NCBI GenBank assembly: GCA_963575745.1
Contig: CAUYUJ010018494.1
Coordinates: 137,845 to 201,844 of the forward strand
Direction: 5' to 3'
Source: Prorocentrum cordatum
Lineage: Eukaryota; Sar; Dinophyceae; Prorocentrales; Prorocentraceae
Length of the DNA: 64,000 bases
In this document: piece by piece, positions 32,937 through 63,432 of the stretch
Numbering within the stretch: position 1 is the stretch's first letter
Layout of the letters: each line of letters opens with the position of its first letter
Translations under genes and position numbers: made by a program
The notes under the pieces: model-generated
What the model was told of the DNA's origin: nothing
What the model saw: the letters and a program-made list of their open reading frames with translations, nothing else
Database searches by the model: none

Positions 32937-34487
32937 ATGGCGCTTTCGATCGGCGGGCAGGCGTTGCAGCTGCCGTCTGTGTCGGGAGGCCGCGAGGCCG
33001 CGGAACAGCTGTTTACGCTTTTGTGCAACGCGTTCCGGTTGGACCCCAAGGTGGCCACCCACTTGGTGTCAGTCGCGGGCCTCGAGAGCATGGCTGATTT
33101 CACACACTTCTTCACGTCGGAGCAGGAAGTCGAAACCAAGGTAATCGAAAAGATCGAGGGCCTTTCTTTCCCAGGGATTCAAGCGTCGCGGCTGCGCCAG
33201 GCCTGGACCGCGGCGAGGCAGGCCGAAACGATCTCCGACACGCGGAAGAAGCGTGGCGTCGAGGATGATGACCTCGATGCGCTCCTGCCCAACAGTGACT
33301 TGAAAGACATCCGCGCCAAGTTTTACGCGAGGTATCGCCTGGGGTTCGGGGTCAAGACTGAGCCGTGCGATCACTTGGTGAGCAGAATCTCAAAGGAGCT
33401 GTCGCGGCGTTTGCTGCAGGCACGCGTTGGCGTTGTGCGCGCTGCGCGCGTCTCCGCGCGGTCGTTCGCGCGCGCGTCCGCAGGTGCATTCGGTTTTCCG
33501 CGTGAAGACGTTGACGCATCAGCTGACCATGACGAGGAAGCGGCAGCGCATTGCGGAGGGGCTAGTCCTCGTCACAGGGGAGCAAGCGAACGAATTCGAC
33601 ACGGAACCGCGCAGAGACGTGGCAACGTATGTCAATTTGCATCACACACTGATGCTGGCGCACGCGCGTGCAGGCGCAACAGCGCGCTGTGCATCGCGAC
33701 GCTGGCGTTTCCAGCGCGCGCGGCGCGTGCAGGCGTCGTCCAGTTGGATCCGCAGCCAGCGGAACCAGAGGCAATGGATCGCGACAGCACGGATTACGTC
33801 GAGGCGCGAACGCGGTGCATCGCGCGCGGCAACCGGCGGTCCGTCGCGCGTCAGGTGCCGCTGGATGTCGTGCTCGCCTACCACAGGAGGCTCGCACAGT
33901 GTGCCACCATCCTTCCCCCGAGTCAGGCCCTCCAGTGGCTGCAACAGCGGGATGAGGAGGAGCGACAGCAGTGGGTTGACAGGCGCGCCGCGATCCGCGA
34001 GCTGCGAGGGGCTAGTGTCGCGAACGTTCCACCGGCGTGCAGGCATCGCCGCGCGTCCATGTCGCTGGGAAAGATCATCAAGGATGTCTTCGAAAGGAGG
34101 GAGCACATGTGGGAGATCCCCGCACGCGGCTTCGCACCAGCCCCCGACGCGCGGCCTGCCGCGGACTTCGCGCGCGGAGCCCCGCGGGGCGCCCCGCCGC
34201 CACCTGCGGCGCAGCAGGGAGGCGCGGGTGCAGGGCGCGGGCAGCGCAACCCCAAGGGCGCGCAGAAGGGATCGAGCACCGGTTTGGCGACCCACCTCAA
34301 GAACGGAAAGGAGCTGTGCAAGAATTTCAATCGGGGGTCGTGCCCGGAGCCCTGCCCGAAGAATCTGGAGCACGCATGCTCCATGATCGTGAGCAAGAGC
34401 GGCCGCGTCTGCGGCATGAGGAATCACTGCGCCGCCGTGTGCCGCAAGGCGCCGATCCCGGAGCAGGGCGCGTTGTCGCAGTATTGA
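32937..34487 (+). CDS. Gag-like protein of element A, interrupted by four mini introns
   Basis: ATG at 32937 (MALSIGGQALQL). N-terminal helical domain with AGLESMADFTHFFTS, then a typical gag body: FRVKTLTHQL and NLHHTLMLAHA, STDYVEVPLDVVLAYH after splicing, and SLGKIIKDVFERREHMWEIP. The C-terminus is a Pro/Gly linker and a Cys/His cluster (GKELCKNFNRGSCPEPCP ... CGMRNHCAAVC) that likely binds nucleic acid. The body changes frame at insertions, and removing 33420-33483, 33674-33732, 33804-33854 and 33983-34042 restores one reading frame with family-typical junctions. Expected role: packaging the element RNA. Read without splicing, the 524-codon frame contains long Arg/Ala nonsense stretches. 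Confidence 0.72.
   Translation: MALSIGGQALQLPSVSGGREAAEQLFTLLCNAFRLDPKVATHLVSVAGLESMADFTHFFTSEQEVETKVIEKIEGLSFPGIQASRLRQAWTAARQAETISDTRKKRGVEDDDLDALLPNSDLKDIRAKFYARYRLGFGVKTEPCDHLVSRISKELSRRLLQARVGVVRAARVSARSFARASAGAFGFPREDVDASADHDEEAAAHCGGASPRHRGASERIRHGTAQRRGNVCQFASHTDAGARACRRNSALCIATLAFPARAARAGVVQLDPQPAEPEAMDRDSTDYVEARTRCIARGNRRSVARQVPLDVVLAYHRRLAQCATILPPSQALQWLQQRDEEERQQWVDRRAAIRELRGASVANVPPACRHRRASMSLGKIIKDVFERREHMWEIPARGFAPAPDARPAADFARGAPRGAPPPPAAQQGGAGAGRGQRNPKGAQKGSSTGLATHLKNGKELCKNFNRGSCPEPCPKNLEHACSMIVSKSGRVCGMRNHCAAVCRKAPIPEQGALSQY
33420..33483 (+). other. putative GC-AG mini intron A-i1 (64 nt)
   Basis: CTGCAG|GCACGC ... TCCGCAG|GTGCAT. Moves reading from the LLQ frame into the VHSVFRVKTLTHQ frame in correct phase. 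Confidence 0.72.
33674..33732 (+). other. putative GC-AG mini intron A-i2 (59 nt)
   Basis: GTGCAG|GCGCAA ... GTGCAG|GCGTCG. Both borders carry the same GCGTGCAGGCG word. Splicing joins HARAG to VVQLDPQ in phase. Confidence 0.72.
33804..33854 (+). other. putative GC-AG mini intron A-i3 (51 nt)
   Basis: GTCGAG|GCGCGA ... GCGTCAG|GTGCCG. Length divisible by three, so the frame stays open unspliced. Splicing gives VEVPLDVVLAYH, which is the family-typical gag sequence. Confidence 0.75.
33983..34042 (+). other. putative GC-AG mini intron A-i4 (60 nt)
   Basis: GACAG|GCGCGC ... GCGTGCAG|GCATCG. Splicing joins QQWVDR to HRRASMSLGK, giving the usual W-x-R-h-R-x-S spacing before the LGxVI block. Confidence 0.72.
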
Positions 34488-34772: not shown

Positions 34773-37069
34773 ATGTGGTCGCAGCGCCAATTGCGGCAGT
34801 GCGTCGTCAGCATGTTCCCCAGGGAATGGCTGAGCAGTTTTGTTTTTCCGTCATTGGAAGATCTAGTCAATCAGTCGCCGTTCGTGGATTTCGCAAAGTG
34901 GCTAGACGAGCGCAGCATCGCTGGACCAGTTGGCAGCACGGCAGGCCAGGGCACGTCTGCCATGCTGGAAGCCGCGGCGGGGCGACAGGCCGGGGCGCTC
35001 TCGGCCAAGCACGCGTTGCCGCCTCTCCTGGGCCACAGCCGGGATGAGGAAGAGCATTTCCGCGCCGCGGTTGATTTCGCGAAGCGGGGGAAGTTACCGT
35101 TCGATGAGGACGTTGCTGCTCCGCATGACTTGAAATTTGCGGCGGAGTCCACCGCCGCAGAGCTGCGCGACTTGAGGGAGTTTCGGTTGCGCAGCATGCA
35201 CGCGCTGCAAGAGCTTAGTCGCCGGTGCAAGCCCCTCACGGCGGAGCTCTTGAAGTGGCAGAGTCCGACTGTGCGCGCCGTGGCGGGGCATATTCACGCC
35301 GGACTCATTGCCGTGCTGGTGGTGCTCGCGCGGTGGCCAGACAAAAGCTGGCGTTGCGCTTTGTCACCGGCTTTGGCATCACTGGCGTAATGGAGAATAC
35401 GGGTGCTTTTGAACCATCCGAGTATGAAGCTCCCATGCCCGTGCACTCGCTGCTTGGAGAGTCCAAAGTCTTGCTGGCGGAACTGGATCGCCAGCGCGCG
35501 AGTGAGGAGGGCCAATTTCTCTGGGATAGCTGCGAGGAAGAGTGCAAGAAAGGCTGGGCGGCACCGCTGCGAAGCAAGTCGGACATTGATGCGGAGTTCG
35601 GCGCGGGGCAGTGGGCGCCGATTCCTGCGTTTTGCCATATTCAGCCTTCTGGAAAAAGGAGGAGAATCGACGACGGGCGTCGGGGTAGGCAGAACGAAGC
35701 GACGGCATTTTGTGAGCGGCAAAGAATGTGTACGCCATTCCAGCCTGTCATCGATGCGAGGGTGGTCCGGCAAGCGTGTGCGGACGCTGGTGCCGACGTG
35801 GCCCGCGAGAGGCTCGTGTCGGGGGGCGAAGATTTGCCGTCGGCCTATCGCTCAGTCCCAGTGCACCCAGATCACTTGCGCTTGAACGTCGTGGCGGTCC
35901 GCGATCCTGTCACGGGAGAATGGAGGTTCCAGGTGGCGTGGGCGTTGCTTTTCGGTTTCTCCGCGTCAGTCATGCAGTTCGCGCGATGGGGAGGATTCCT
36001 GCAGGCAGTGCAGCGCCGCGTGTTGTCGCTTTTGCTTGCCATGTATGTGGACGACGCGAATATTACTGATTTTGAATCAGCTGGGGGCGCTGGTCAGGAG
36101 GCCGCACAGTGCCTTTGCGCGGAGTTGGGCACGCCTGTGGCTCCCTCGAAGACGAGGAGGATGAGCCCGTCCGGCGATTTTCTGGGCGTCGTGCACACCT
36201 TCGGCCCTTCGCTGGACTCGAATGTCATATCTTTCAGGGCGCGCGACACTCTCGTCGAAAAGGCGAAGACGTTCATTGCGGCGAGGCGCAGCGAGGGCAG
36301 GCTCACGCCCGGAGACGCCAGCAAGTTGAGAGGCCTCCTCAACTTCATCGCCAGAGCGGCGTGGCACGGCGGGGGCAAAGCAGGCATGGGGGCTCTGAGG
36401 CAACGGCAGTACACAGATCAGCCGCCTTGGACCCTGAGCAACTGCCTGGTGCGCGCCCTCGATTTCTTTTATATAATTCTGCAAGACATGCCGAGCCGCG
36501 TGGCCGAGATCGCGCCGAGAAGCGAGCCTTGGATTCTCATTGCTTCTGACGCGCGCGCTGACAATGACGCGTGGCCGACAGGGGGGTACGTGTTGTTAGA
36601 TTGCGCCGACGGCTATCGGCAAGCTGGCTTCTGCGTTTTTGACGGGGCTCTGCTGGGCATGTGGGGCTACTGTGAGGAGCGCTTGTGGCAGGGCGGCCAG
36701 CCCATCGCGCTGTGTGAGGGCGCGATGCCGCCCATCATCTACCAGCGCCACGCTAAGCGGCTGGCAAACCGCCGCGTGCTGTATTTCAAAGACAATACCA
36801 GCTCTCTGCATTCGTACGTCAAGGGCTGCGCGGTGCCGGCCGCGCTGGATCGGTCGATTGCTTTCACTAATTTCTTGGCGAGCCGCCGGTCGATCACCAC
36901 GTGGTGGGAATTCACGCCTTCGGGGACCAATTGGTCGGACGGGATTTCGAGGCAGCTAGGAAGTGACGCGTTTGTGAGGCGACATCGATTTCCAGCAAAG
37001 CGAATCGGCGTGGACAGTCGTATTTGGACGGGCAGCTTGGAGAGCGCTTGGCGCTTCGCCCGCGGGTAG
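34773..37069 (+). CDS. reverse transcriptase / RNase H of element A (one frame break)
   Basis: Begins MWSQRQLRQCVVSMFPREW. The first part runs in one frame to about 35340 and the rest in the -1 frame. The break lies in ACAAAAGC at about 35342, where one extra A would rejoin ARWPDK to KLALRFVTGFGITG. RT blocks: RRRIDDGRRGRQNEA (the R-I-D-D-G block of DIRS-type RTs), SGGEDLPSAYRSVPV (motif A), ALLFGFSASVMQFARW (motif B), MYVDD at 36044-36055 (motif C) and GDFLGV. RNase H follows, with SDAR (36547), CEGAMPP, KDNTSS and WSDGISR supplying the acidic residues. The product would copy element RNA into DNA and remove the template strand. The ORF ends about 100 nt before repeat B1. Confidence 0.88.
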
Positions 37070-37172
37070 CCCCCACGTGTGGCTGCGACGCGCCGTTATA
37101 CATTGTGTTGCTCGGTAAGTGAACAGCGTTGGGTGAGCGAGCGGGGCGTGGGGGTGAGCAGCGTTGGGGGGA

Positions 37173-37390
37173 TCGGCCAGAGGGATGCATCGCCCCTCGG
37201 TCGGTCGGCCTCCCGTCAAGGGGATGCATCCCTCCTTGGGGGGGAGCGGCTCCAGCCGCCCCAATGTTGTTCCCTATGGAAACCCGCTCTCTCTCACCTT
37301 AAACCTTACGTTCACTCCAACCAGCAAAAAACAATGCTTTTGGTCCCACGGACCCAGTCTAGTAGCTAAGGTGGGCGCGTAGATTATGGG
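37173..37390 (+). repeat. B1 internal repeat of element A
   Basis: About 218 bp, starting TCGGCCAGAGGGATGCATCG and ending GTAGATTATGGG. Repeated as B2 (47705-47924) with a handful of substitutions and a 2-nt A-run difference. Contains two GGGATGCATC palindromic words. Confidence 0.92.
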
Positions 37391-37509
37391 TGCACTTTAG
37401 GCCCGGGCAGGCATGGGTGAGTGCTTCATAATGTACGCGCGCGGACACCTTGGAAACGTCGCCCGCGCATGCAGCTCGGGGCGCAGGGGCGAAGAGAGGG
37501 GGGGGGCGC
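37391..37509 (+). repeat. A2 repeat, left part (before the copia insertion)
   Basis: Continues from B1 without a gap, as in split-direct-repeat elements. Identical to the first 119 bp of A1, and resumes after the copia element at 47448-47538. Confidence 0.93.
37505..37509 (+). repeat. copia target-site duplication, left copy (GGCGC)
   Basis: GGCGC here and at 47443-47447. The uninterrupted A1 copy has the sequence once, at about 29511-29515. Confidence 0.9.
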
Positions 37510-37731
37510 AGTTGAGATTATTATGTCTAGGACCTGTTAGGCATGTTGTCTCATACGCTAGAAGGACCTGTTAGGCATGTTGTCTCATACGCTAGAAGCA
37601 GTACCGTACTGTAACGTACTGGCTCAAGTCAAAGCAGTAAAAGATTATCATTTTTATTGCCATTAGTTCATATAGCTTTCGCTTAAAGAACTTAATATTT
37701 CCAGTTCAGGATTTTCATCAGAATCTGGAGT
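37510..37731 (+). repeat. copia 5' LTR with internal 34-bp duplication
   Basis: 222 bp, from AGTTGAGATT to AATCTGGAGT. The unit GACCTGTTAGGCATGTTGTC... occurs twice (37531-37564 and 37565-37598) but once in the 3' LTR. Ends are not the usual TG...CA. Confidence 0.94.
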
Positions 37732-37732
37732 T

Positions 37733-37747
37733 TGGTAGCGGAGCCAG
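37733..37747 (+). other. primer-binding site (initiator tRNA-Met type)
   Basis: TGGTAGCGGAGCCAG starts one base after the LTR. It resembles the TGGTATCAGAGC primer site of many copia elements, complementary to the 3' end of an initiator tRNA. Confidence 0.7.
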
Positions 37748-37934
37748 TCGGCTCCCTGCCTTCTGGCTCTCTCTCTGCCGCAGGACATACAGTCACGGCA
37801 CCGACGACACCTACGAGATTGTCATCCCTTGGTGTAGTCTGATATTTGGGTTGTTTCAGTATATCAAGATATACACTACCAGACACAGAGTTGGATCAGA
37901 TACAGTCTATTTTGCCTGAAGTTCGGTTGGAAAG

Positions 37935-40628
37935 ATGTTGGCCTCACCACAGACTACTCCTCTCTCTCTCAAGCAGTATTCTAAGGACATACCGCCAGGC
38001 TGGCGACCACGAGCGTATCCAATCCGTGAGTATCGTGAAGCATTGGAAATATGGAGTCGACTCACGCGTTTGGAGCAAGACCAGCTTGGCGCAGCGGTCA
38101 TGAGCAGACTAGAAGGCCCGGCACTGCGGGCAGCGCAAGATCTACGCGTGACACGACTTGATCAAGCAGGCAATGTTGTGAACTACCGTGGCATCGAGGC
38201 GGTCAGTTTACCAAGAGTTGCAGCAATATTGGACGGCCAAGGCAACGAACTCGCCCCACTGCAGCACAGTGGAATCAAGATTCTGAATGACAGATTGTTT
38301 GAGATGTATGGACTGGACGATCAAGATTTGGCCTGGACATCACTGGACAGATTCTTTACGTTACGTCAGGGATCCAGTCAGGACTTCATCTCATATCTCT
38401 TCGAGTGGGATCACTTGTACGAAGAAGCTGAACGATATGGAGGATTACAAATGGGCGAGTCAGCTAAGGCGTGGCTTTTCTGGTCACGGACGACATTCAC
38501 TGACAAGACTCTCGCGGATCTACGCTTAAAAGTCAATGGAGATCTCAACAGATGGCGCGAGATGGTTCAGTTGCAGCTAAAAGTGAGCAAGAACGAGATG
38601 GCGGCCAATGAGCAGCACGTCGGGTACAAGAACTACTGGGAAGATTCAGACTCCTGGACAAGAGAGTATGAATACGATTATGACAACTACTACGAGGATG
38701 ACGAGGAGTACTACGACGAGTGGTACGATGAGGAGTACGATGATGATGATGACTGGTATGACGACAACGGAGATCAAGATGGATACGGAGGCGCAGCAGC
38801 AGGTGGCACTTCATCATCTCTCCCAACCACATCGACACCGGACGAGGACTACTGGCAGAACGCACGCGGAAAAGGATCATACGGCAAAGGAAAGAGCAAG
38901 GACGACAAAACTGGCGGCGGCAAGAACGGCAAGAAAGGAGGAAAGAAACGACAAGGAGATCAGTGTACGCTATGTGGCTCGAGATGGCACAATTCTGACA
39001 CCTGCCCTCTCAAGGATGATCAGAAAGAGGACAACGCGTATCAGACTGACGAGCAGTATGATGAAGAATACTACGGACAAGGAAAAGGCTATCGCAAAGG
39101 AAATCGCAAAGGTAAAAGACGTGGCAATGGCAAAGGATACGATCGAGATCGGCACAGAGGCTATCAAGACAATCGAGGATCTCACGACCATCATCGACGC
39201 GATGTTCCACGCTTCGGCAGAAGCGACTTCCAGCAGCGACAGCAGAAAGGCAAAGGACGTGGCAAGAAAGGATATCGATCAAAAGGAAAAGGCTACGACC
39301 AACGACGACAGTTCTATCAAGACACTGATCGCGAAGACGACGCATATGGAAGCTACACGACCTTGCCGGCCATCGAAAAACTTGAGCTCGTCGCGCCAGT
39401 CGCCGTAGCTGCTGGGCCTAACCCAGGTGGATGCCGTGGTTGTCCCTGTCCAACTGTGGTTCTCTCTCCGGTGCCGAATATATCGTCGTATGCTGATCCT
39501 TTCCGTGTCGGTGTTCTCTCTGCCGTCGAGGTAGGTACGAACTGGCACGCTCCTGAAGATAAAGGGGTCCGTGTCATGATGTTCTTGTCGTACGTGGATG
39601 TCTCATTCGGTATTGCTGCCTGTTCGTCTGGTTCTTCTTGTTCATGGGCATCATCAAGCGCAGTTTCGGTTTCTGCGTCTACTCATACCTGTTACAGATG
39701 TTTCTCAGCGGCGATTGCGAAGTGCGGCACGTGTAACCGTTCGTTTTGTATATGTCACGGATTCAAAGGACACTTGATGGTGATGTGCTCCTCTTGTCTG
39801 GATATCTCAGCCGCCCGGCAGCAACAACAGCATCAATCACAACAAGACGCACAGTCACCAGGGACCACTTCTCAGCAGCAGACCACACCGAGCTCTGATG
39901 ACACGTCATCAAGTTGGATGTTGATACCTAGACCGGACGAATCGCAGATTCAGGACGAACCAGAGGAGTTTGCAGTGTTGCCAGCTTCTGGCAACCCGTT
40001 CAAGAACTTGGCGGTCATCAGCGGAGTCAACGTCATCGGCCTCATCGTAGACCCTGGAGCAGCTCGCGGTCTTATCGGAAGTGCTACTCTTCGAGAGATC
40101 TTCGACAAGCTACTACGACCTCGCGGCCTGATGAAACACGTGATGTGGTATCGTTCAAAGAACAAGTTCACGGGCATCTCATCTCAGCCCCAGCACAGCA
40201 TCGGCATATGTGTATTTCCTATTGGTCTGGTTGGAATGAAGCATGCTTACTTTTCTTGCGATGTCATCACAGGTCAGTCAGCGAACTGTCCTGGACTTAT
40301 TCCACTACAGACTCTGCTACGACTCGGCAGCATCATATCGTGCGGACACTTCCAGAATCAAGACGGACTTCTGGGACTGAGACTCGGCAATGGCGAGATG
40401 TGCTCACAGAGGATTCTCTTGACGGACTCATCGCACTACTTACTTCCGATCGACAACTTCGACAAAGAAAAGAACGACGTGTGGAACAAAACTGTACTTC
40501 AGCATCAGCAGGAAGTGGACGACGGAGCACATCAGCAAGGACAACATCATCACGGAGTCACTCTCATATCCATGATCGACGGCAACGACCGAGCACCACA
40601 TGAGGACCACGGGACTCATTTTCATTGA
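37935..40628 (+). CDS. copia Gag-protease polyprotein
   Basis: 897 residues from ATG 37935. Residues 1-215 form a helical capsid-like region (PPGWRPRAYPIREYREAL, WTSLDRFFTLRQGSSQDF). A Tyr/Asp-rich acidic stretch follows (about 225-265). Next is a zinc knuckle CTLCGSRWHNSDTC (C-x2-C-x4-H-x4-C, from about 344), then a basic Gly/Lys/Arg segment (about 395-460). A second cluster, CYRCF ... CGTC ... CICHG ... CSSC (about 586-625), is unlike a retroviral knuckle and recalls a B-box or RING-type zinc fold. The protease core is GLIVDPGAARGLIG (about 701-714), with DPG in place of the usual DSG/DTG. It ends in the overlap with the next ORF, which lies in the -1 frame. Role: particle formation, RNA binding and polyprotein processing. 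Confidence 0.9.
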   Translation: MLASPQTTPLSLKQYSKDIPPGWRPRAYPIREYREALEIWSRLTRLEQDQLGAAVMSRLEGPALRAAQDLRVTRLDQAGNVVNYRGIEAVSLPRVAAILDGQGNELAPLQHSGIKILNDRLFEMYGLDDQDLAWTSLDRFFTLRQGSSQDFISYLFEWDHLYEEAERYGGLQMGESAKAWLFWSRTTFTDKTLADLRLKVNGDLNRWREMVQLQLKVSKNEMAANEQHVGYKNYWEDSDSWTREYEYDYDNYYEDDEEYYDEWYDEEYDDDDDWYDDNGDQDGYGGAAAGGTSSSLPTTSTPDEDYWQNARGKGSYGKGKSKDDKTGGGKNGKKGGKKRQGDQCTLCGSRWHNSDTCPLKDDQKEDNAYQTDEQYDEEYYGQGKGYRKGNRKGKRRGNGKGYDRDRHRGYQDNRGSHDHHRRDVPRFGRSDFQQRQQKGKGRGKKGYRSKGKGYDQRRQFYQDTDREDDAYGSYTTLPAIEKLELVAPVAVAAGPNPGGCRGCPCPTVVLSPVPNISSYADPFRVGVLSAVEVGTNWHAPEDKGVRVMMFLSYVDVSFGIAACSSGSSCSWASSSAVSVSASTHTCYRCFSAAIAKCGTCNRSFCICHGFKGHLMVMCSSCLDISAARQQQQHQSQQDAQSPGTTSQQQTTPSSDDTSSSWMLIPRPDESQIQDEPEEFAVLPASGNPFKNLAVISGVNVIGLIVDPGAARGLIGSATLREIFDKLLRPRGLMKHVMWYRSKNKFTGISSQPQHSIGICVFPIGLVGMKHAYFSCDVITGQSANCPGLIPLQTLLRLGSIISCGHFQNQDGLLGLRLGNGEMCSQRILLTDSSHYLLPIDNFDKEKNDVWNKTVLQHQQEVDDGAHQQGQHHHGVTLISMIDGNDRAPHEDHGTHFH

Positions 40629-43600
40629 GTCCTGGGCACGACGCTAAACTGTTCACTCCAGATACTCTTACCTCATTCTCATCTACAACACGGAAATACT
40701 ATCGAGATTGGCAAGCTCTTTCTTCAAAGGAATCTTTCTCACTGTGGAACGGCGAACCACTCTTTCCTTCACACCTACTTCCAGAGGAGTTAGCAGCTGC
40801 AAGGACCGAATTCAATTCGATCCCAGAGATGTTCTACGCGACCTACACCTGGCTACCGGTCATCACGCCCGAGAACTACGACGCTTTCGAGGCAGCACTG
40901 GCCAAGGGACCTTATTGTGGATATCCGATTCTATGGAGTTGGTGTTCAGGTTCATCCCATCTATCTCTCTGTATGGCATCATTACCTTTCTTATGTGCAG
41001 TACTTTTCCCTGTTGACCTACGCTACGGATGGGACCTCAAACATCGACCTCATCAACTTAAGTTACAGAGAGCAGACAAGACATTCAAACCAAGAGTCAC
41101 AACGATGGAGCCAAGATGCAAGTATTGGAGTCACATGGGCACTGGACGCGACATCAAGGACACCATGGAGTTACGAGAATCAGAAATGCCCATGTTGAAG
41201 TTCATGACCTCACACGCTGTCAAGATCAAGCAGGACTTCAGAGACAATCTTGTGGAGAATCCAAGATCTTCTAGTATTTGGACGAAGTCTCCCTTGGCAG
41301 CCCTCCTTGATCATCCAGCTTATTCGAATCAACGTTACAATACTTGTATGTGTGCTTTCTCCAGTGAAAAGGACGGCCGAAGGAACAAGAAGGACACTAC
41401 GTTGATTTCGAACTTCTGTCTCAGTCATTCTGTGAAGCGCTGCAGCTGCAAGAAGGAGCACATACATCTTCAAGGTTATGATAAGGAGACGCATCGTAAG
41501 CGGACGGCAGCAGCAGCAATGTTTTCAAAGAAGTTCTGTACGGCACTTTGCAAGGACATGGCCCTGGAGTCCAAAGAACCAGGAATCTCTATCAACAAGT
41601 TCTCAAGAGCTTTCCCGGCAGCAGCAGATGACGAGGCAGAAGATGAAGCACCATTAGCTCAGTTACCAGCACCAGCAGGACCTAAGTCCTTGGACGACCT
41701 CATGGAAGAATTCAAGGACATCGACACCAAGAGCATCAAGATCACGCTCGACACCTTCACGCCCACGGAAGCACAATGGATCAAGGCAGCGGTTCTTTCC
41801 ATCATCGATTACACTATGAGTTTCGGCGTTCCTGGGGCACCTACCGGACGGATTTTGATGTTGCCTGGTACTGGTAGACCACAACAGGAAGGTGCACGAG
41901 TTCTATGTCATGCTCTCAGCCAAGTTTACACGACCAGGACTGTGACATCTCAATGCCATATGTCAGAAGCACACAAGTTTGACGAGACTGAGTTTAGCAA
42001 TCCTGATGACTACGAAGATCGCATCAGATTTCTTGGCAACAAGGACGGCCACTACCACATGAGCGTAGTCAAGGATTGGAGAAACGCACCTGAAGACGAC
42101 ATAGACACCACGACGACGATCTACATCATCACTCTCCTCGGCGTTCACCTTTCGGACATTATACTCGACGGTCCTCCCGGCCGACGAGATCAAGCTCGAC
42201 GACTCAGAGGAAAGCAACCACGACCTACACACGGACCATATGCTATTCCACCAGAGAGGCCTGGACCACTTGCGGCTTCTACTGACGACGCCATCGAGAA
42301 GATCGAGATCAACGGCCGTGTCTTGTCACGGACGAAGCCCAACATGGAACTTCGGGAGCTACCCAAGAAGTTGACTCATGCCAACGAGAAGGATCGTGCC
42401 GGACTACTGCGTCTACTTCATGAACGCTTCTGGCACAATTCTCCATTGGACATGATGAAGTTGCTGCAAGCCATGCCACTACCTCAGGCTATCGTTCTGC
42501 AGGGCATGGAGATTTGCAAGGCTTGTGAAGTTTGTCAGCAATGGGCTAAACGACACGTACGACCTCAGATCAAATCGTTTCTGGCTACAGTGTTCAACGA
42601 GATGGTACAGCACGATTTGTTCTTCCTCTGGGATGAAACGTTCATGATTCTCATTGATGAAGCTACTAAGTGGAAGACCGGAGACCATCTCATCAACAAG
42701 ACAGGTCCAGTATTGGTGAAGGCACTCAACTACCTTTGGATACGCATTTGGGGAGCGATGCAGAACCTTCTCACTGATCAAGAAGGAGGTCTCATGGGAC
42801 ACGAAGCCACCAAGCTATGTGATCGACTCGAGATCAACAGACTGGCTATCGGCAAAGGAGGCGCCACCACCAAAGGACTTGTCGAAAGGCATCTAGCCCT
42901 TCTCAAGCTTTCTATGCTCAAGCTCAAGCAGTCAAGTCAAGCAGAAGGATTGGATCTCAGTTACTCCGACATCTGCTACGAGTGTTGCGCCGGCCACAAT
43001 TGTACTCTCAACTATGGCGGCAGCACTCCACAGTTGGCCTTGACTGGACAATTACCGAGGATGATTGCGAGCGACAGCGAGACCATCACATCCATGACGG
43101 GCGCCCTTGAGAAGCGTCCTGACTACATGGAGTCTATGTCACGCGCACGACTACTGGCTCGACAGGCTATCGTACAGTCAGTTATTCAAGATCGATTAGC
43201 TCAGGCATCCAAGATAACTCAGCACCAGCACGAACCGGAGCTACTCGTTCCGGGAACGATATGTGATATCTGGCGAGAACCAGCACGGAAAGACGAATGC
43301 GGATGGCGAGGGCCAGCAGAAGTCATCAGCCTGGAGCGACGCGCAGGATCGGCAATAGTCAAGCACCAGGGCCAGCCGCTTATCATTCCTCTACGACATC
43401 TTCGGCGACATGTTCTTACTGAACACTACATCATGGAGCTCAACAAGAAAAATGACACGAGCAGCTTATACATACACTACGACCTGGTCAACCCTACGAT
43501 GGTCAAGGCAGCGGCTACCTTTCTGACACCATATCAGATATATGCCGATGGAGTTTTGGTTCCTTCGGAGACGCTGTACGACCTGATGGATTTAGTTGAC

Positions 43601-46600
43601 GGATCTACGCCCACTAAGATATATTGGTTTGGCTTGGTATGGCAGCAAGAGCAGTATCGATATGTTCCCAGTGAAGAAGCTTGCGATTCATGCAAGCCTT
43701 TGGCCCTGGGCATCAAGATATTCAGCGATACGTTCAAGCCTGTGCATGGTATCTTGTACGGCTCACAAGTACGTCGACTTCCTCAGATTGAATATGCACA
43801 GTGGGCTCTATTGCTACGCTGGCGACGAGAGGACCGAGCTGACTACAGTATTCGTGTACGACGCCCAGACATAGCTCTTCGCTATACAGCCGAGCAATCT
43901 ACCAACTACAGCACAATGATGCTCTACAGCTATGACCATTGCGAGGATCTGGACAAGCATTTCGATCCACCAGAGTTGGACTGGAGTGACATCAGCATGA
44001 TTGACTGGCCTGACGACCTCTCTGACATTGTTATTCCGGATCAGCAGCCACCGCGGGATCCACCAGCACCGCCAGCTCGGGCACCACCAGTTCCACCTTT
44101 TCGGTCAAATGCTATACCTCCACAAGAGCCTGGACGACCACCAGATCAGCCATCGCATGGTCAACCCTCGACGGCACCAGCTACGGCAGGCACACCGCAG
44201 CTCAACGTCCCAGGCGACCAGACTATCGACAGCGACGACGACATGGAAGAGATACCAGCTCATGGACATGATCACGACCTACCTCCAGCACCTGGACCAG
44301 CACCTCGACGTATCTCTCGAGAGGCACCTATGGGTCCACCTTCGTTGCAACCACAGCACCGAGACACACAAGGATCAGAGGATTCACTGCAGACTCCAGC
44401 TACTCCTGACAAGTTACCCTACATTCCTCTCGACTTGAACAAGTCCAAGACAAGCACAGCGGAGAAGCAGAAAGCAGTTGATCCTCCAGACGCGGCACAG
44501 TCACCACCTCAGAAGCGAGGGAGATCATCATCGCCATATCCATGGCCCTCTCCTTGGCAGCCTGAGTCACCACCACGACCACAGACGACGTCTACGGGGA
44601 GATATCAACCAGGAGCTTCTTCATCGTCAACGGACTTGCCAGCGGCTACGCCGGGTACGTCCTCGACACAGCCAGCTCCAGCGGATACAATAGAACCACC
44701 TGTACTTCCCATTCGTAAAGATGAAGTACCAGCAGGAGAGCAACCCTCGACTTCTACTGACAGAACTCTGGAATACAGCGACGACCCAGATGGAGATACC
44801 AGAGTCTTATACCAGGAGACGATTGACCACCTTGACATCCCCAAGATCGTCAATCTATGCGAACGACTACCCGACGGAACTTACAAGCAAAGTATGGAAG
44901 CAATTTATGACGAGATGATCAGCAACCTTTCAGATGATTTTGATTTTGTATCTCCGACACTTTACTCCGACTCGGACCGATATCTATACTACCATTACGA
45001 TTTATATGAATCAATGGTTTTTCGAGTTGATGATTCGACGGCGAACCTCACAGATGACGAGATGAGACGTTTTGCGAAGTTGGTTATTGCAGGAGATCAT
45101 AAGGAGTTGAAGGCTTTTGTTACTCATGATATTTTCGAACCTGTACTTCGAGACCACCTACCCGATAAGGCGAACATAGTTGATTGTACATGGGTAAGGA
45201 AATGGAAGGTCAAACACGTTGAAGTCAAATCACGACTATGCGCTCGAGGCTGTTTCGACCGACAGAAGAACTTTATTGAGAAGCACAGCTCGACAGCGAC
45301 AAGATTATCGCAGCGTTTGGTTTTGAGTTTAGGATGTTGTGAAGGTATTCTACATGTGAACGACGAGAATGACGGCGACGTCGACACCGAGAGCCTGGAT
45401 ATTTCAACGGCTTTTCTACAAGGACTCGGATACGACAACCTACGCGAGAAAGCAAGGAATCTCGGCTATGAGTATCGTGAAGACCGGACAGTCTACATCC
45501 TTCCTCCGGAGAATGTGTGGAGTCATTTTCGACGCATGCCGGAGGCATCTTCCAGTTGGAAAGTTGCAGATAAGGATCGACACAGATATGCCCTCAAATG
45601 CTTGAGAGCAATGTACGGTTTCACAGACGCACCATTGATGTTTCAGTTGGCCTTGTTGGAGTTTCTCAAAGATAAGACAGGAGCTAAATCATCGGTTTTC
45701 GACGACAACTATCTTTACTGGGGCATCGATTACAAGGGCAACAAGGTGATCGTTTTAGTCATGACTGTTCATGTGGACGACTTACAGATTACTGGCAGCA
45801 GATTCTATCGCGATTGGATACACAAAAAGTTGGAATCCAGATTCGGCAAGCTCAAGAGGCAGACGATGCCATATACACATGCTGGCCTACAGCTCGAACG
45901 AATTGTACCGACGTGTATACGCATTCATCAAGATCAGTTTACATCATGTCTTTCGCCATGTGTTATACCAAAAGAACGAGTTGATGTACCAGATGCACCC
46001 TGCACGGCAGCAGAACACAAGACGTTCAGATCTCTTACTTGTGGAGCACTCTGGGCATGCCAGACACGACTGGAGGAACTATTCAACGTTGTTTTTCTAC
46101 AGACCAAGCTACAGAGTCCGACCATCAAGGACCTCCTGGCGATCAACGCAGTGATCAAGAGACTCAAGAAAAATCCCGAGAAGTTTGGCATCTACTACAG
46201 GAAGCTCAAGGCACCACTACGGATCTCTTGTATTACGGACGCCTCTTCAGCCAACAAGAACAGCAATTTCGCCACAGAAGGAGTCACGATAGGTCTTCAA
46301 GAAGACCGACTACATTTTCCTCTATGTGATCGACAAGATTATCTGCAGGACAATCTGATCAATCGGCTCAGTGGCAAGTTACACGCACTAGTGGTCACTT
46401 CGACCAAGTCTAAGAGAGTTTCACACAGCACGTCCCACGCGGAGACGTTGGCAGCAGCACGAGGAGTTCCCATGGCACAGATTATCGGCATGAGGCTCAC
46501 AGAACCGGAGATCAACATTTTATGCGGACCTCAGAAGCCACTACAGCTTCAAGAACGACTCGACCGAGGGCAGTTGAGTTTACCAGTGGACGCTTTCATT

Positions 46601-46894: not shown

Positions 46895-46952
46895 TATTTC
46901 AGTTCAGGATTTTCATCAGAATCTGAAGTATGATCTGGAGTTTGGTTTATAT
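46886..46952 (+). repeat. partial LTR-end copy overlapping the Pol stop
   Basis: AAGAACTTAATATTT(C)CAGTTCAGG ... CAGAATCTG matches the last ~45 bp of the LTR. After a short insertion, TCTGGAGTTTGGT repeats the LTR / primer-site junction. This looks like a relic of an LTR plus leader inside the element. Confidence 0.8.
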
Positions 46953-47254
46953 GTGAAATGTTATATGAGCAGCTCCACATGTATAACATTGTTCGACTTC
47001 AATCGTGGAGCTAGTATTTTATGTTCACCTTTATCGGCTACCACTTCGAGATGGATTTATTTCAGTGATGTATTTCAATGGATTTATATTTGGTGGCCGT
47101 GGTGGATATGATAAGCCTGCTATGGCTTACTTAGGACTGCTGTCCTACTCTTTCCTCTCTCTCACTCCTTCCTAGGGCCGCTACCGAACTCCAGTAAAAT
47201 CGACTGGGTTTCATTTTTATAAGATCTAACATGTCCTAAAGAAAATAGGACCAG
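46953..47254 (+). other. copia 3' untranslated region with polypurine tract
   Basis: No ORF. A purine run AAAGAAAATAGGA at 47238-47250 sits 4 nt before the 3' LTR and is the likely plus-strand primer site. Confidence 0.75.
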
Positions 47255-47442
47255 AGTTGAGATTATTATGTCTAGGACCTGTTAGGCATGTTGTCTCATA
47301 CGCTAGAAGCAGTACCGTACTGTAACGTACTGGCTCAAGTCAAAGCAGTAAAAGATTATCATCTTTATTGCCATTAGTTCATATAGCTTTCGCTTAAAGA
47401 ACTTAATATTTCCAGTTCAGGATTTTCATCAGAATCTGGAGT
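47255..47442 (+). repeat. copia 3' LTR
   Basis: 188 bp. Identical to the 5' LTR except for one C/T difference (ATCTTTATT versus ATTTTTATT) and the absence of the second 34-bp copy. Confidence 0.95.
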
Positions 47443-47538
47443 GGCGCCCCCCCCCCTTCGCTGCCCGCGCCGAGGGGCTGCGAGGAAGGGGGGGCGACGG
47501 GCCGCGGTGGCCGCGCTCACCTTGCGATTTGATTTTTC
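47443..47538 (+). repeat. A2 repeat, right part, with TSD copy GGCGC at 47443-47447
   Basis: Continues the A1/A2 homology exactly where 37509 left off (C-run, then TTCGCTGCCCGCGCCGAGGG) to GATTTTTC. Confidence 0.92.
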
Positions 47539-47924
47539 CCACCCTCCCGCCCTGGGTTTGCATTCAGCAAGCTGGGGGGGGCCAAGAGGGTAAGCGAAGC
47601 GACGAAGCCTCGAGCGCGACACTTCGCGCATGAGGGATGCATCTCCCCTCCGTGGTTGGTCGCGCATGAGGGAGGCATTTCCCCTCTGTTACAAGGGGGG
47701 GGGGTCGGCCAGAGGGATGCATCGCCCCTCGGTCGGTCGGCCTCCCGTCAAGGGGATGCATCCCTCCTTGGGGGAGAGCGGCTCCAGCCGCCCCAATGTT
47801 GTTCCCTATGGAAACCCGCTCTCTCTCACCTTAAACCTTACGTTCACTCCAACCAGCAAAAAAAACAATGCTTTTGGTCCCTCGGACCTAGTCTAGTAGC
47901 TAAGGTGGGCGCGTAGATTATGGG
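47539..47924 (+). repeat. right end of element A: spacer and B2 repeat
   Basis: 47705-47924 is B2. The 47539-47704 spacer contains two GCATGAGGGATGCATCTCCC-like units related to the GGGATGCAT words in B1/B2, giving about four such sites at this end. Confidence 0.88.
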
Positions 47925-50551
47925 GCCAATCCGCTCCTCGACGGGGCCTCAGTCCTTGGCCACCTCACTGGCCAGACGCCCCACGGGGGCGGCCTGGGTG
48001 GGGAGCGAGCTGGGGGTCCAGACGACGCCGGGGCGGCGGGCGCCCTGGGCGGGCTTACAGCCGAGGCCGAAGCCCAGATCATCGAGCGCCTGGATCGTCA
48101 GAACCGCCTCACCGAACGCCACGTCCTCGCCGCCGAGCGGCAGGCGCGGGCCACCGAGGGCGACAAGAAGGCCCGGGGCACCAGGGCAGGGATCGGTCGG
48201 GACGAGGAACTTGATCGTTACATAGCCCGGGGATGCAACACCTTCGTGGTTGAGGCCTGCGAGGGGATCACGGGGAAGGACTTGTTCGACTCTCTCAAGC
48301 GCATGTGCGCGCACTCCAAGAGCACGCTCAAGACGATCGGGTTTCCCTGCCTGGTTACTAACCGTGTGGCACACGGCTACGCGGCGCTCGCCTTCGGGAC
48401 GGGCCCTCACGACCTGGCGGTGGACGACTGCGTCCCCGCGCGTGACGAGGACTTCGATGGCTATCGGCTCCCTGTGGACGACAAGCTGGAGCCCCGCCAA
48501 CGGCCCGCCACCCACATGGCGACTTGGTTCAAGAGGGCCCGGTGCGAGATCCAGATGTTCGAGTCCATCATAGGGGTCGCACACGGGGCGGAGCGTCGGC
48601 GATCGTTAGGGTTCTTGGAGGCGGCCTTCGAGAGGGACCCCTCGGAGTTCCCAGACCATTGGGTCAAGGATCTGTGGGAAGAGCTCCGAAGCACCTGGGT
48701 CGAGGAGTTGCGGGAGCTGAGGCGTCGGCTATGCCGAGAGCTCGACACCGAGAACCCGAGGAGGGAGGACATCAAGTACATCCTACTCATGCCGGAGAAC
48801 GGCTACGATTTGCCCCGAACGTTCGACCTCGGGGACCCGAACGCCTACTACCAGCAGGTGGTCGTGCCCCGGCGCAAGGCCGCACTCACGCGCCTCCTCA
48901 ATGGGCAGCTGAACGCCCACCTCACGAAGCGACCGCCCAAAGCGGGAGGGAGCGAGGAAATGGGCGATCCCCGGCCCACGGCGCAGGCGGATGACAGGCC
49001 CAAGGCGGGGGCTGGGCCCCAGCCGAAGGCGGGGCCCAAGGCGGGCACCGGGGCCCCAGCGGGGACAGCCCCCAAGAGGGCGTACCCAGCGGGCAAGGAA
49101 CTAACACGCCCGGAGCGTACGCGATCCGTGGCGCATGCGCCCCGCAATAAGGACAACGTCCCTATCTGCTGGGGGGCCACCACGCTCATGGGCTGCTCGC
49201 GGAAGGCTTGCGACTGCCCTAACTCCCATGACCCCATCAAGTCAACGCGCGGATTGGACTACACGGTAGTCATGCAGCTCACGAGGCGCGGGGGGCTCCT
49301 TGGGACGCCCCGGATCGATCCCAAGCAGGTGGATGGGATGATTGCGCAGCTGCGCTCGCAAGCCAAGGCAGCCGAGGCCGAGAAGGTTGGCGAGGACACT
49401 TCACCACCTGCTGCCCCTGACTCCCAGAAGGAAAAGGGCCGTGGCCGTGGCAGCGGCTCGCGAGCAGCGGGCGACCCAGGCCCGGGGCAGGCCCCGGACG
49501 ACTACACCGCGCTCCAGCTTACCGCGATGGAGTCTGACCTCCGGGAAGCGGTTAAGGGCCCCGACTTCGGATGGCTCGAAGACCACGACCGCCCGCGCGC
49601 GGCGGCCACTTGGGACGCCCAGCCCGCGGGTGACGGGCCGGAGCTTCGCCTCAAACTCATGCAGGAGCTCGAATCCGAGGGCATCTTCGCGCCCCTGAAG
49701 GGGGCCAGCGAGTACTTGCAGAGCCACGTGCGCGGGCGCGTCTTGGGGGCGCGCCTGCGCGGGGAGCGGCTCACCCTGGAGCGAGCCCTCGAGGAAGCCG
49801 TGGACCGAGGCCATCGGGGTCTCAGCAGCGAGGCAGCCGACCTGCATGAGGCGCTTAGCTGCGCCGCAGGATACGTCCCCGAGGGCGGGGCTGAGGTTGG
49901 CCCGGTTGCGTGGGACACCGACGGGCTGATAGGCCGCGGGTCCTATACCTTCTGGGACGGGGACACCCGCATCCAGTGGGACTTCATCGACTATCGGGAC
50001 CGCCTCGGCCCTACAGAGGAGATGGGCCAGGCGATGGGCCTGGAGGTGGGCGACCCCGAGGAGCGGCAGTGCCTGCTACTGCACGTAGCTGCGGGGGTGC
50101 TCCTGCTACGCGCGGGCGAGGGCACAGGTGAGCCCAGCCCGGACGCGGTGCAGCAGTTGGCCGCGACGTATCGCCATGCACTATGGGAGGAGGCCCATGA
50201 GGCCCTGCGTGCCCTGGCGACTCCCCGCCGTGGATCACGGCCCTGGAGGCCGATGTCCGCTCCTACGTCCACGATGCGGTGCACCCGCACCACGACAAGG
50301 ACTATCGCTGCCTGGCAGCATGCCCTGTCGCCGACCTCGACGCCGTCACGCTCCAGGTGCACCGTGTCAACGGCAGTGGGCGCCTATGCGTGGACCACCT
50401 CATGGGAACGGGCGTCGGCGCGGAGGATCACGTAATTCCGCTCCTGATCTGGCGTGGCCATATGCGCGCCTTGCGCCCACGCTCCCACGCGGAGGCGGCG
50501 GCCCTAGGCCAGCGCTGGGGCACGCAGGACGCCTGTCCCGCGAGATCGTAA
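47925..50551 (+). CDS. Gag-like protein of element B (5' end missing, frame break near 50218)
   Basis: Open from 47925 without a start codon at the border; the first GTG/ATG candidates are internal. Early part: coiled-coil-like LTAEAEAQIIERLDRQNR, then a helical body (ARGCNTFVVEACEGITG, DLFDSLKRMCAHSKSTLKTI, FPDHWVKDLWEELRSTW). A Pro/Lys/Gly linker follows. A Cys-rich motif CWGATTLMGC ... CDCPNSH fits a CCCH-type finger as in gag proteins of related elements. Near 50218 (GCGACTCCCCGCC) reading moves to the -1 frame, which continues with PWITALEADVRSYVHDAVHP and CVDHLMGTGVGAEDHVIPLL until a stop at 50549-50551. A missing C in the C-run would explain the shift. Confidence 0.68.
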
Positions 50552-59642: not shown

Positions 59643-59698
59643 TGTGTAGTCTGATTGGTTGTAGACTGCAGGTTAAGTGGGAGGGGGTGTGGGCTCAG

Positions 59699-59994: not shown

Positions 59995-60020
59995 CTCTGT
60001 TCCCCGCGCGTTGCCGCGCA

Positions 60021-60533
60021 GGCGGCGGCCTCGAAGCGCCGCGTGCACCTCGGTATCGTGTACGACGAGGAGGCGCGGAAGGCGCGCCCCTGCGTTCGTG
60101 CTTGCGCGGCGCCCTGCGTCTGTGCCGGCGCGTGGCAGCTATGGGCCGAGCAGCTACGCTCGGGGGACCCAGATTTCAAGCTGGGGAAGACGATCCTGCG
60201 GGTCGACCCGCGCGCCCTACAGCTGGCGCGGGATGCTTGCGACAAAGAAGACGGCGCCACCCACGCGACGGCGAGCGCCGCGCCGCGCGGATTCGCTTCT
60301 GCCACCTTTCTCCGCCGTTTCCGCGCGCGCAGGCACCGGCGGCCCGCGCTCCCGAGAAGGCGCGCGGGGCGGGCGGCGCCAGCCAGCCGTGGCGCGCCGC
60401 GCAGAGCTGGAGCAGCGGCTCCTGGGGCAGCGATTGGCCGAAGGGCCAGAAGCGCGAGCGCTCGTGGGGCAGCGATTGGAAGAAAAAGGACACGAGGAAG
60501 GCACGGACGCCGCCGCGCCCGGCGCAGCGCTGA
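60021..60533 (+). CDS. Gag-like exons of element C
   Basis: After an acceptor-like CGCGCAG at about 60020, the sense frame reads KRRVHLGIVYDEEARK. Removal of 60082-60138 joins this to LWAEQLRSGDPDFKLGKTIL and RVDPRALQLARDACDKEDG. Removal of 60256-60332 then leads to a Trp/Ser/Lys-rich tail (SWSSGSWGSDWPKGQKRERS) and a stop at 60531-60533. The tail resembles basic gag C-termini. The N-terminal part of gag is not found. The assignment as gag is by position and composition. Confidence 0.45.
   Translation, partial: GGGLEAPRAPRYRVRRGGAEGAPLRSCLRGALRLCRRVAAMGRAATLGGPRFQAGEDDPAGRPARPTAGAGCLRQRRRRHPRDGERRAARIRFCHLSPPFPRAQAPAARAPEKARGAGGASQPWRAAQSWSSGSWGSDWPKGQKRERSWGSDWKKKDTRKARTPPRPAQR
60082..60138 (+). 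other. putative GC-AG mini intron C-i1 (57 nt)
   Basis: GGAAG|GCGCGC ... TGGCAG|CTATGG. Frame-neutral. Splicing gives EEARKLWAEQL. Confidence 0.62.
60256..60332 (+). other. putative GC-AG mini intron C-i2 (77 nt)
   Basis: GACGGC|GCCACC ... GCGCAG|GCACCG. Shifts from the KEDG frame to the frame of the Trp-rich tail in phase. Confidence 0.5.
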
Positions 60534-61060: not shown

Positions 61061-63432
61061 TGATGCCGGCGCCGCCAGCGCCGCCAGGGCCGCAATTCAG
61101 GAGCGATTGGTCTCGGCGTTGCAGCGACAGCGCGTGGCGCGACATCTGCGTCGCGGCCGGCGGCTGCAGCGGCGGCGACGCGGAGAAACTTACCTTTCTG
61201 GCAAGGGCGCTCGACGGCGACCCCGCGCTCCGGGGCAAGTGGCGGCCCGCCGCGGCCTCGGCTTTGCCGCCCACGGCCGCTGAGGCAGTGCGGTGGGCCG
61301 CGCAGACCGCCCCCGCCGACGCGGTGGCTTTCCGCGAGGGCGAACTCGCGGCGCTTCGCGAAAGGGATCGGGCTCTCCGGGCCAGTGGCGCCGTGGAAGA
61401 ATGGTTCCGGGGGGTGGACCCCGCCATGCGGCGCGTCGCACAGCACGTGAACGGGCTTCTCTGCGCAGAGATCGCGGAGCGCATTGCCTTCTGCGACCCA
61501 GGCTGCGTGGAATTCTTCAGGACGGGGGCGCCCCTCGTCGGCGAGCTCCCGCGGTCGGGCCACGGCAGCCCAGAGGTGTTCCCTCCCCGTCTGGGCATAG
61601 CGGAGCTGCTCGGCAACGCCGAGTCGACAAATCGCGACATTTCCTGTGGCCTCCGCGACGGCGCGCACGGCGACGCCATCCTCCGCAAGACACGGGACGA
61701 GGCCGAGCTGGGGCGCATCAGTTGCCCGGTGCCGCTCCGCGACGTGTGCCTGGACGGGGCCGTCATCGCTCCGAGGGTTGCGGTTGAGCAGCTCCGTGAA
61801 GACGGGTCCTCGAAACTCCGGTTGGTCGACGACATGACCAAGGCTAGGATTAACGAGGCGACGCGGCCTCAGGAGCGGCTCCACCACGATGCCGTGGACG
61901 CGCTTTTCGACGCAGCTCGCATCTTCCAGGAAGTTGCGGGGCGGGCACCCGCCCTCTGGAAGGCAGACATCGACGCTGCCTTTCGTCGCGTGCCCATTCG
62001 CGCTGAGCACCGCCGATTCGCTTGGATCGTGTTCAGCGCCGCCGGGCAGGTCTGGGCGGCGCAGCACGCGGCAGCGCCCTTCGGGGCCGCGTCGTCGGTG
62101 CGCAGCTGGGCGCGAGTGGGTGCCTTCATCGCGGAGGCGGCGCGCGTGCTCTTGCGGATCGCCGCGCTGCGATACGTGGATGATTATTTTGGGCCGGATC
62201 ACCCCGAAGTGGTGGAGCACGCAGCAGCGCAGCTGGCGGAGCTAATTCAGCTGATGCTCGGCCCGGGCGCGGTGGCGCCGGACAAGATCGCCTGGAGGTC
62301 CCCGCTGGTCATCCTCGGCCTCGAAATCAAGGCGGGGCGGCCTTGGCGCGACGCGCCAGCCGGCCGGCTGCGCGCATCGCCAGGTGCTGCCACGCGCGTT
62401 CTGCGCGCGTCCCGCACCCGCGAAGACCGCCAAATGGCAGCGTGTCATCGGCGAGGCGCTCGCGACGCGCGCCCTCGCGCCAGGCGGCTCGCGCGTCCCC
62501 CCTAATGTGTCGGGACCTTGCGTTCGCTGTGCAGGCGCATCGTCCAAGCTGGCCGGGGGCTTGGCCTGGGCAGCGTCGCATCTCTTCCGCCGCCTGGGGC
62601 GCGCCCTCCTCTGGCGCGGCGCTGCCCCCGCGCGCCCGGGGGGGCGGGGCGCCGCGCTTCGTGCTCGCAGGCCGTTGTACGCGCAATCGCATCGCGGGGC
62701 ATAGGCCCATGAGCCGTTGATGCTTGCCCTGCAGTGGTGGCGCGAGGTCTTGGCCATGGACTTGCGCCAAGCGCGGCCATGGGCCGACAAGGCGCGGCCT
62801 CGCGCAACTCTCTTCGCGGACGCGTCGGGCCAACCACCGTGCGTGGCCGCGGTGCTCGTCACCGCCACGGGCATCCGATTCACTTCCATGGTCGTCCCGG
62901 ATTCCTTGATGGCGTCGTTCCAGCGTCGCCGGGACAACCAGATTCAGGGGCTGGAGCTCCTGTCTATCGCGCTGGGCATGTGCACCTTTGCAGGCATTGC
63001 TTTCGCGTGCGACTGCCCGCGCCGGCGGGCAGGTCCGCCCCTCGTCTTCGCTGCGCTCAGGGGAAGTGCAAGGTTGCGACTTGCATATTTACAGCGACAA
63101 TACCGGCGCGGAGTCTTGCCTGCGGAAGGGCGCCGCGAAATCCTTCGACCACTCGTGCATCGTCCACTCCATGTGGAGGCGCGCGGTGGAGCTCGACGTT
63201 GACCTCGCGGTTTTCCGCGTGCCCACGGCTGAGAATCTGGCCGCTTTGCCTTCTCGGCGCGCCCGTGCGCGCCGCGCGGTGCTGCGGGCTGGCCGCGGGC
63301 GCAGCGTGTCGCAGGGGGGACGACGAACTCCTGCTACGCATCGGCGCGGTGCGCTCGCGCCCGTGGCTCGACGAAGAATTCTGGCACGCGGATGCCTGGG
63401 GCGCTCTCTCTGTGGCCCGCCTCTTCGGCTAA
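61060..63432 (+). CDS. reverse transcriptase / RNase H of element C, with four mini introns and one stop
   Basis: The RT frame (open 60673-62505) becomes protein-like from about PAPPAPPGPQFRSDWSRR (61061). Blocks: SSKLRLVDDMTKARINEAT, WKADIDAAFRRVPI (motif A, about 61960), AAPFGAASSVRSWARVGAF (motif B), LRYVDDYFGP (YVDD at 62173-62184) and ILGLEI. Near 62390 the sense frame changes, then AKWQRVIGEAL continues. Splicing 62484-62534 and 62614-62670 gives GASSKLAGGLAWAASHLFRR and ALLWPLYAQSHRGA. A TAG follows at 62702-62704. RNase H: LFADASG, QGLELLSIALGMCTF, then after removing 62994-63060 IYSDNTGAESCLRKG and KSFDH. Removing 63257-63314 joins LPSR to GDDELLLRIGAV and the typical WLDEEFWHADAWGALS end. 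Confidence 0.8.
62484..62534 (+). other. putative GC-AG mini intron C-i3 (51 nt)
   Basis: GCGCCAG|GCGGCT ... CTGTGCAG|GCGCAT, with an internal CTAAT that could be a branch point. Frame-neutral. Splicing gives APGASSKLAGGLAWAA. Confidence 0.72.
62614..62670 (+). other. putative GC-AG mini intron C-i4 (57 nt)
   Basis: CTCTG|GCGCGG ... GCTCGCAG|GCCGTT. Frame-neutral. Splicing gives RALLWPLYAQ. Confidence 0.7.
62994..63060 (+). other. putative GC-AG mini intron C-i5 (67 nt)
   Basis: TTTGCAG|GCATTG ... GCGCTCAG|GGGAAG. Moves the frame by one and joins MCTFAG to EVQGCDLHIYSDN. Confidence 0.74.
63257..63314 (+). other. putative GC-AG mini intron C-i6 (58 nt)
   Basis: CTTCTCG|GCGCGC ... GTGTCGCAG|GGGGGA. 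Moves the frame by one and joins ALPSR to GDDELLLRIG. Confidence 0.74.

Follow-up and report, generated by a model that had tools for sequence, protein, structure and literature searches.

Retroelements are expected to lose introns, since RNA is what they copy. The window analysed here, a stretch of 64,000 nucleotides from the dinoflagellate Prorocentrum cordatum, contains two retroelements (A and C) whose conserved protein blocks are separated by short segments that start with GC and end with AG. This raises the question of whether these segments are introns and, if so, how they could persist in elements of this kind.

Element A and the interruptions of its gag

Element A extends from 29393 to about 47925 and is interrupted by a copia element with long open frames (Table 1). 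These frames are in keeping with the earlier statement that copia lacks such insertions, a statement also made for a further element, B. A 123-nt repeat present at 29393 and again at 37387, together with six other copies of A, gives the order of its parts: A1, recombinase-like ORF, gag, RT/RNase H, B1, A2 and B2. The split direct repeats, arranged as A1-coding-B1-A2-B2, and the combination of reverse transcriptase with RNase H are those of a YR retroelement of the PAT/DIRS group; the repeat layout was read in A, while the window ends inside C and the third family, D, was read around its gag. The left flanks differ in all six copies checked.

The tyrosine-recombinase-like ORF was assigned from a predicted structure (pLDDT 69), for which the top Foldseek match was Cre (E 2e-3, TM 0.38/0.46) followed by Flp, none of them at E 0.001 or better. 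A Pfam scan returned no match for either this ORF or the RT of A, a PDB sequence search and a search of viral contigs yielded nothing useful, and exact DinoSL was not found within the window. The ORF shares 98% identity with the NCBI-sourced protein P0016, which carries no name and lies on a contig of 7,483 bases. The N-terminus of the A gag matches PF05295, the dinoflagellate Luciferase/LBP N-terminal domain, so the gag of a retroelement is among the proteins that contain it.

Table 1. Features of elements A and C, with window coordinates and the evidence for each
Feature	Position	Strand	Evidence
Left terminal repeat A1 of element A	29393..29591	+	copy at 37387-37509; six other copies start here, as does the left end of L081
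Tyrosine-recombinase-like ORF of A	30025..31500	+	predicted-structure fold matches Cre, Flp; no Pfam match
A gag exon 1, Luciferase/LBP N-terminal domain PF05295	32937..33419	+	Pfam E 1e-8; homologues P0002, P0003
A intron 1 (putative), 64 nt, CAG/GC...CAG/G	33420..33483	+	not in P0002/P0003; in 38/40 scored copies; exactly absent in L081, L082
A gag exon 2	33484..33673	+	P0003 alignment begins at 33484
A intron 2 (putative), 59 nt, 13-nt border repeat	33674..33732	+	homologues; kept in 40/40 scored copies
A gag exon 3	33733..33803	+	homologue alignment
A intron 3 (putative), 51 nt	33804..33854	+	homologues; kept in 40/40 scored copies, one with internal 38-nt duplication
A gag exon 4 (VPLDVVLAYH...)	33855..33982	+	homologue alignment
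A intron 4 (putative), 60 nt	33983..34042	+	homologues; kept in 40/40 scored copies
A gag exon 5	34043..34487	+	homologue alignment
A reverse transcriptase + RNase H ORF	35390..37069	+	BLASTP to P0011 over RT and RH, E 8e-13
Internal repeat B1 of A	37166..37386	+	in other copies the same sequence comes after A2
First part of repeat A2, cut by copia insertion	37387..37509	+	match to A1 repeat
Copia element nested in A2 (about)	37510..47442	+	5-nt duplication GGCGC; ends read by eye; A resumes after
Rest of repeat A2 + repeat B2, right end of A (approximate)	47443..47925	+	other copies
C intron 1 (putative, weak), 57 nt	60082..60138	+	P0013 alignment; kept in 38/38 scored copies having both flanks
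C segment 2 (candidate), 77 nt	60256..60332	+	kept in 40/40 scored copies
C reverse transcriptase exon	61063..62331	+	P0004, P0010-P0012; Pfam RVT_1 E 0.032, under the RVT_1 cut-off
Eleventh intron (putative), 52 nt, AAG/GC...CAG/G	62332..62383	+	joined reading as long as P0010
C intron 3 (putative), 51 nt	62484..62534	+	not in P0010/P0011; insert there in 40/40 scored, one 55 nt and diverged
C intron 4 (putative), 57 nt	62614..62670	+	not in P0010/P0011; kept in 39/40 scored
C intron 5 (putative), 67 nt in window	62994..63060	+	not in P0010/P0011; kept in 40/40 scored
C intron 6 (putative), 58 nt	63257..63314	+	not in P0010/P0011; kept in 40/40 scored

The preliminary description had placed four insertions in the gag of A, and all four coordinates proved right. 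The segments, each bordered as AG/GC...AG/G, are missing from the gag homologues P0002 and P0003, which are continuous proteins, and the matching pieces of P0003 begin at 33484 and 33852. Three proteins came out of the search with the unspliced A gag frame as query, in which 7,986 candidates were scored; P0002 and P0003 are protein records that may stem from genomic DNA or from cDNA. The relative P0001 (86% identical) keeps stretches of the first three insertions and ends before the fourth. Its in-frame exons share 188 of 207 residues with A, versus 40 of 57 in inserts 1-3 (Fisher p 2.7e-4), in a comparison that leaves out a wrong-frame block (53/62); exon 4 alone, at 15/23, is no better conserved than the inserts.

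Read without splicing, the gag of A is open for 528 aa, which speaks for the segments being translated additions or decay rather than introns. However, composition gives a probability of about 0.37 that 78 insert codons contain no stop, so the open frame is little evidence. Moreover, A introns 1 and 2 shift the conserved block that they enclose to a different frame, and 40 near-identical A copies argue against decay. We consider translation or decay very improbable.

Element C and the probable intron character of the segments

Homologues also delimit most of the segments in C. The continuous RT-RNase H proteins P0010 and P0011 lack C3-C6, as well as an additional segment at 62332-62383, whose removal gives LGLEIKVLPRAFCARPAPAKTAKW, equal in length to the P0010 stretch. 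Of the six coordinates proposed earlier for C, those of C3-C6 therefore stand. C1 is weakly supported by P0013, which aligns with a local score of 48 when the flanks are joined, whereas unjoined the best alignment lies elsewhere and scores 36; C2 lies in low-complexity gag where no homologue resolves it, and is kept as a candidate. To the earlier count of at least ten insertions, the segment at 62332-62383 adds an eleventh. Restoration of phase upon removal, described for every case, is borne out by homologues for 10 of the 11 segments in A and C (weakly for C1), with C2 as the exception.

The borders in C are less regular than those in A. The (A)G/GC...AG/G pattern ascribed to most of the insertions applies to all four in A and breaks down on the acceptor side of C1, which is followed by the base C, and on the donor side of C2, C4 and C6, which lack the preceding AG in the window. 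The TG/GC donor of C4 is private to the window, with CAG/GC in 6/6 other copies fetched; C intron 5 is 68 nt long in the six other copies fetched. The window's copy of C also carries a private 3-nt deletion (62690-62710), which creates a stop in RNase H and is absent from six other copies, and a two-copy direct repeat (59432-59642 and 59783-59994, 97-98%) precedes the element.

In two of the three comparisons made, the inserts have diverged more than the exons. Besides the comparison of A with P0001, this holds for C and the more distant locus L090, where 366 of 423 exon positions are identical versus 68 of 104 in C3 and C5 together (p 2e-6). When the C copy in the window is set beside six others that are nearly identical, insert and exon do not differ (10/235 vs 31/780 variable columns, p 0.85).

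The segments carry host splice signals, with a GC donor and an AG acceptor. In P. cordatum genes, the donors are GC (51.4%), GT (24.7%) and GA (23.8%), and 79.7% of acceptors are AGG (PMC10666404), in agreement with the earlier statement that dinoflagellate genes use GC donors, here the commonest class. Lengths of 51-77 nt are unusually short for a host with a mean intron of 4,709 bp (PMC10666404). Taken together, the sequence data support a reading of the segments as short introns of spliceosomal type, and the losses and polymorphism described below likewise suggest that they are true introns.

Retention and possible gain and loss among genomic copies

The genome searched comprises 4,128,499,153 bases in 21,875 contigs. 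For A, all 40 places scored out of 73 candidates match the full 1,561 bases, four insertions included, with 99-100% identity. Polymorphic positions number 0/234 in the inserts and 14/1,327 elsewhere, counted without gaps at 17 loci that include the window itself and leave aside 13 reverse-strand loci. For C, 40 of 146 candidates were scored; 30 of these match the full 3,481 bases with at least 97% identity, and the remaining ten match a shorter stretch. The retention counts in Table 1 were scored out of 71 candidates for A introns 2-4, 81 for C1 and C2, 125 for C3 and C4, and 101 for C5 and C6. The one copy lacking C4, L090, was rejected as a case of intron loss, as it has an imprecise deletion of ~62 nt that lies off the splice borders. 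Another copy, L089 (C14379), bears the 38-nt tandem duplication within A intron 3.

The preliminary description offered three routes by which the insertions could have come to lie in retroelements. Entry after integration is refuted by the dozens of near-identical A and C copies that carry them, and regain in each cycle is not credible given the same sequence at the same positions. Copying of unspliced RNA fits best of the three. Alignment of other A and C copies, the check proposed there, found the insertions in nearly all scored copies with few exceptions (L081, L082 and L090), which implies that the replicating template keeps them. As judged from these alignments, the insertions pre-date the amplification of the elements and survive it.

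A third family, D, is related to A through gag. It was found by a genome search with P0002, in which 98 of 9,838 candidates were scored and 205 matches obtained, and 30 loci were fetched; identity among the full-length D loci is about 99% or higher. Putative D intron 1 (71 nt, CAG/GC...CAG/GC) occupies a position where A, P0002 and P0003 have none, so intron positions differ between A and D. It is kept in 39/40 scored places (76 candidates), the fortieth, L051, being cut off 12 nt before the junction. In two D-gag loci, L051 and L079, an identical 139-nt upstream sequence is joined to gag, at a different point in each.

At a second site, D displays two coexisting states. A 63-nt insert is present in 17/30 loci fetched and missing from 13/30, a proportion biased by the higher rank of empty loci in that search. 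The insert is flanked by a 9-nt repeat, GGCAGGCGC, which is single in empty loci, and the two classes are distinguished by no further indel of 6 nt or more along about 3.7 kb. Since P0002, P0003 and A have no insert at that point, a gain is suggested, and from its sequence the insert looks like a fresh gain with target duplication.

The presence of this insert is scrambled with respect to the rest of the element. In a tree of 25 loci, from which five fused or truncated loci were dropped (L051, L060, L061, L077 and L079), the insert needs 8 changes versus a shuffled-label mean of 7.6, and a single clade of empty loci is rejected (p-AU 0.001). With L059, L068, L074 and L076 additionally dropped, the four-gamete test on 21 loci finds the insert incompatible with 12/21 SNPs; the SNPs themselves conflict with as many as 13 of the remaining 20, so recombination suffices to explain the pattern. 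For this reason the D pattern alone was rejected as evidence of recurrent loss, although recurrent exact loss in D is possible on these sequences. Of the 21 SNPs common to the 21 near-identical copies (within L052-L080), 20 are transitions, and at 12 the more frequent base is T and the less frequent one C, a bias which RNA editing or recombination could cause.

Exact absence was also found for A intron 1. A 99-nt probe joining its flanks, scored at the best 40 of 67 places, matched one place in full (L081), one from base 30 (L082) and 38 as two halves. L081 misses exactly the 64 nt of 33420-33483 and keeps introns 2-4. It is 99.6-99.7% identical to A over the 1.8 kb read, and has both terminal repeats, spaced as expected and bordered by sequence foreign to the element; the reading comprises these 1.8 kb and both ends, and an assembly error in the rest of the interior is possible. 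L082 (C5626) is a derivative of A with about 29573-33403 deleted and A1 kept, and it shares the same intron-1-minus junction.

These absences can be read in two ways, and the best rival to an RNA step is deletion between border repeats. Such repeats measure 5 nt at A intron 1, 13 nt at A intron 2 and 9 nt at the second D insert (2-6 nt elsewhere), and the 5-nt and 9-nt repeats could explain the exact losses. Alternatively, recombination may have shuffled ancestral empty sites, as the SNP incompatibility among D copies would allow; the empty state may be ancestral in D, given that P0002, P0003 and A share it. Imprecise deletions do occur, as in L090, and L082 has another, larger deletion. Against this, the loss in A coincides with the boundary set by the homologues, and A intron 2, with the longest border repeat, was lost in 0/40 scored copies, opposite to a repeat-driven prediction. 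That L081, L082 and the empty D loci are uninformative on splicing is thus a serious possibility, albeit one to which we give less than even weight.

The near-universal retention would also follow if the segments were true introns in elements that spread as DNA, through recombinase-made circles or segmental duplication, and were never exposed to loss. YR enzymes can act on DNA circles. However, the recognisable RT and RNase H regions common to A, P0010, P0011 and C suggest that these are in use, and a copy without intron 1 alone is best explained by an RNA step; spread as DNA accounts for retention, but less simply for L081. We regard it as unlikely.

From these comparisons, we think it probable that host-type GC-donor introns are heritable parts of at least three retroelement families (A, C and D), whose template is mostly RNA that keeps its introns. 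The host spliceosome would remove the segments to yield the messages for Gag and RT-RNase H, while reverse transcription would mostly use RNA with introns in place, either unspliced sense or antisense. Occasionally, a partly spliced RNA might be copied, giving a copy without one intron, such as A intron 1 in L081. If spliced template is used at all, this must happen seldom, as A introns 2-4 and C5/C6 were lost in 0/40 copies, C1/C2 were never seen lost and D intron 1 is nearly always kept. New introns may arise as short DNA inserts with a small target duplication, as in the 63-nt insert of D, and then spread with the element.

Relation to introners and other intron-keeping elements

Introners are reportedly the subject of a paper by Roy from 2023, which PMC11453091 cites. 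The preliminary description proposed that such mobile elements, which make introns in many host genes, had colonised the retroelements, and introner elements have indeed been reported in P. cordatum (PMC10666404). The 9-nt repeat at the second D insert falls within the reported range of 3-9 bp for introner target repeats (PMC9860276), and A intron 2 has its 13-nt repeat; the shorter repeats at the other borders speak against this origin. We compared 12 inserts (four from A, six from C and two from D, leaving out the eleventh segment). No clear shared family emerged in 132 comparisons, the highest z being 4.6 (60 shuffles) for C5 vs reversed D1, and terminal inverted repeats were found in 1/12 inserts at 0.01 (A2), with the other 11 at 0.13 or more. 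With neither a clear common sequence nor consistent inverted ends, the introner label is not earned, and we hold an introner origin to be improbable. A likeness may lie in recent intron gain with short target duplications, and dinoflagellate hosts are shared (PMC9860276); the second D insert looks like one such gain event. Introners differ in that they scatter independently, whereas here no insert family is recognisable and the retroelement carries and multiplies the inserts.

The closest known counterparts are YR retroelements of the PAT/DIRS group, including SymbioDIRS-Dnmt3 of Symbiodinium (PMC5890265), which are alike in the A-coding-B-A-B split repeats, RT-RNase H, a recombinase-like ORF and the dinoflagellate host. 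The Symbiodinium elements were annotated with intronless gene models (PMC5890265), while those described here have four or more putative introns in gag and RT-RNase H. In an overview of DIRS1 (PMC3266345), the word 'intron' is absent from the main text. Our literature search, in which subscription journals were thinly covered, found no report of introns in YR retroelements, and such a report may exist.

Penelope-like elements likewise keep introns through transposition, for which an antisense or unspliced template was proposed (PMC3846280, citing Arkhipova 2003), and the same source contrasts Penelope, as an element that disperses genes with introns, with every other type of retrotransposon. 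An antisense template would work here too. Penelope-like elements differ in their RT class and in their GIY-YIG endonuclease (PMC3846280); Pfam scans of A and C gave no telomerase-like RT with a GIY-YIG endonuclease domain.

Four to about seven putative introns thus appear to be kept by retroelements outside the Penelope group, one of which has YR A-B-A-B repeats, and gene models that allow no introns will give a wrong picture of elements like these. The elements are young, in that copies with an insert, copies without it and copies that seem to be partly spliced occur side by side, with an identity of about 99% or higher. A single culture could therefore serve to test two long-standing questions, namely by what route introns are gained and what RNA a YR retroelement uses as its template. 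More tentatively, and with some doubt on our part, the introns may be a working part of the element, with splicing separating message from genome and partly spliced genomes leaking through. If that is true, one genome would record intron gain (the second D insert) and exact intron loss (A intron 1) as they happen, outside Penelope.
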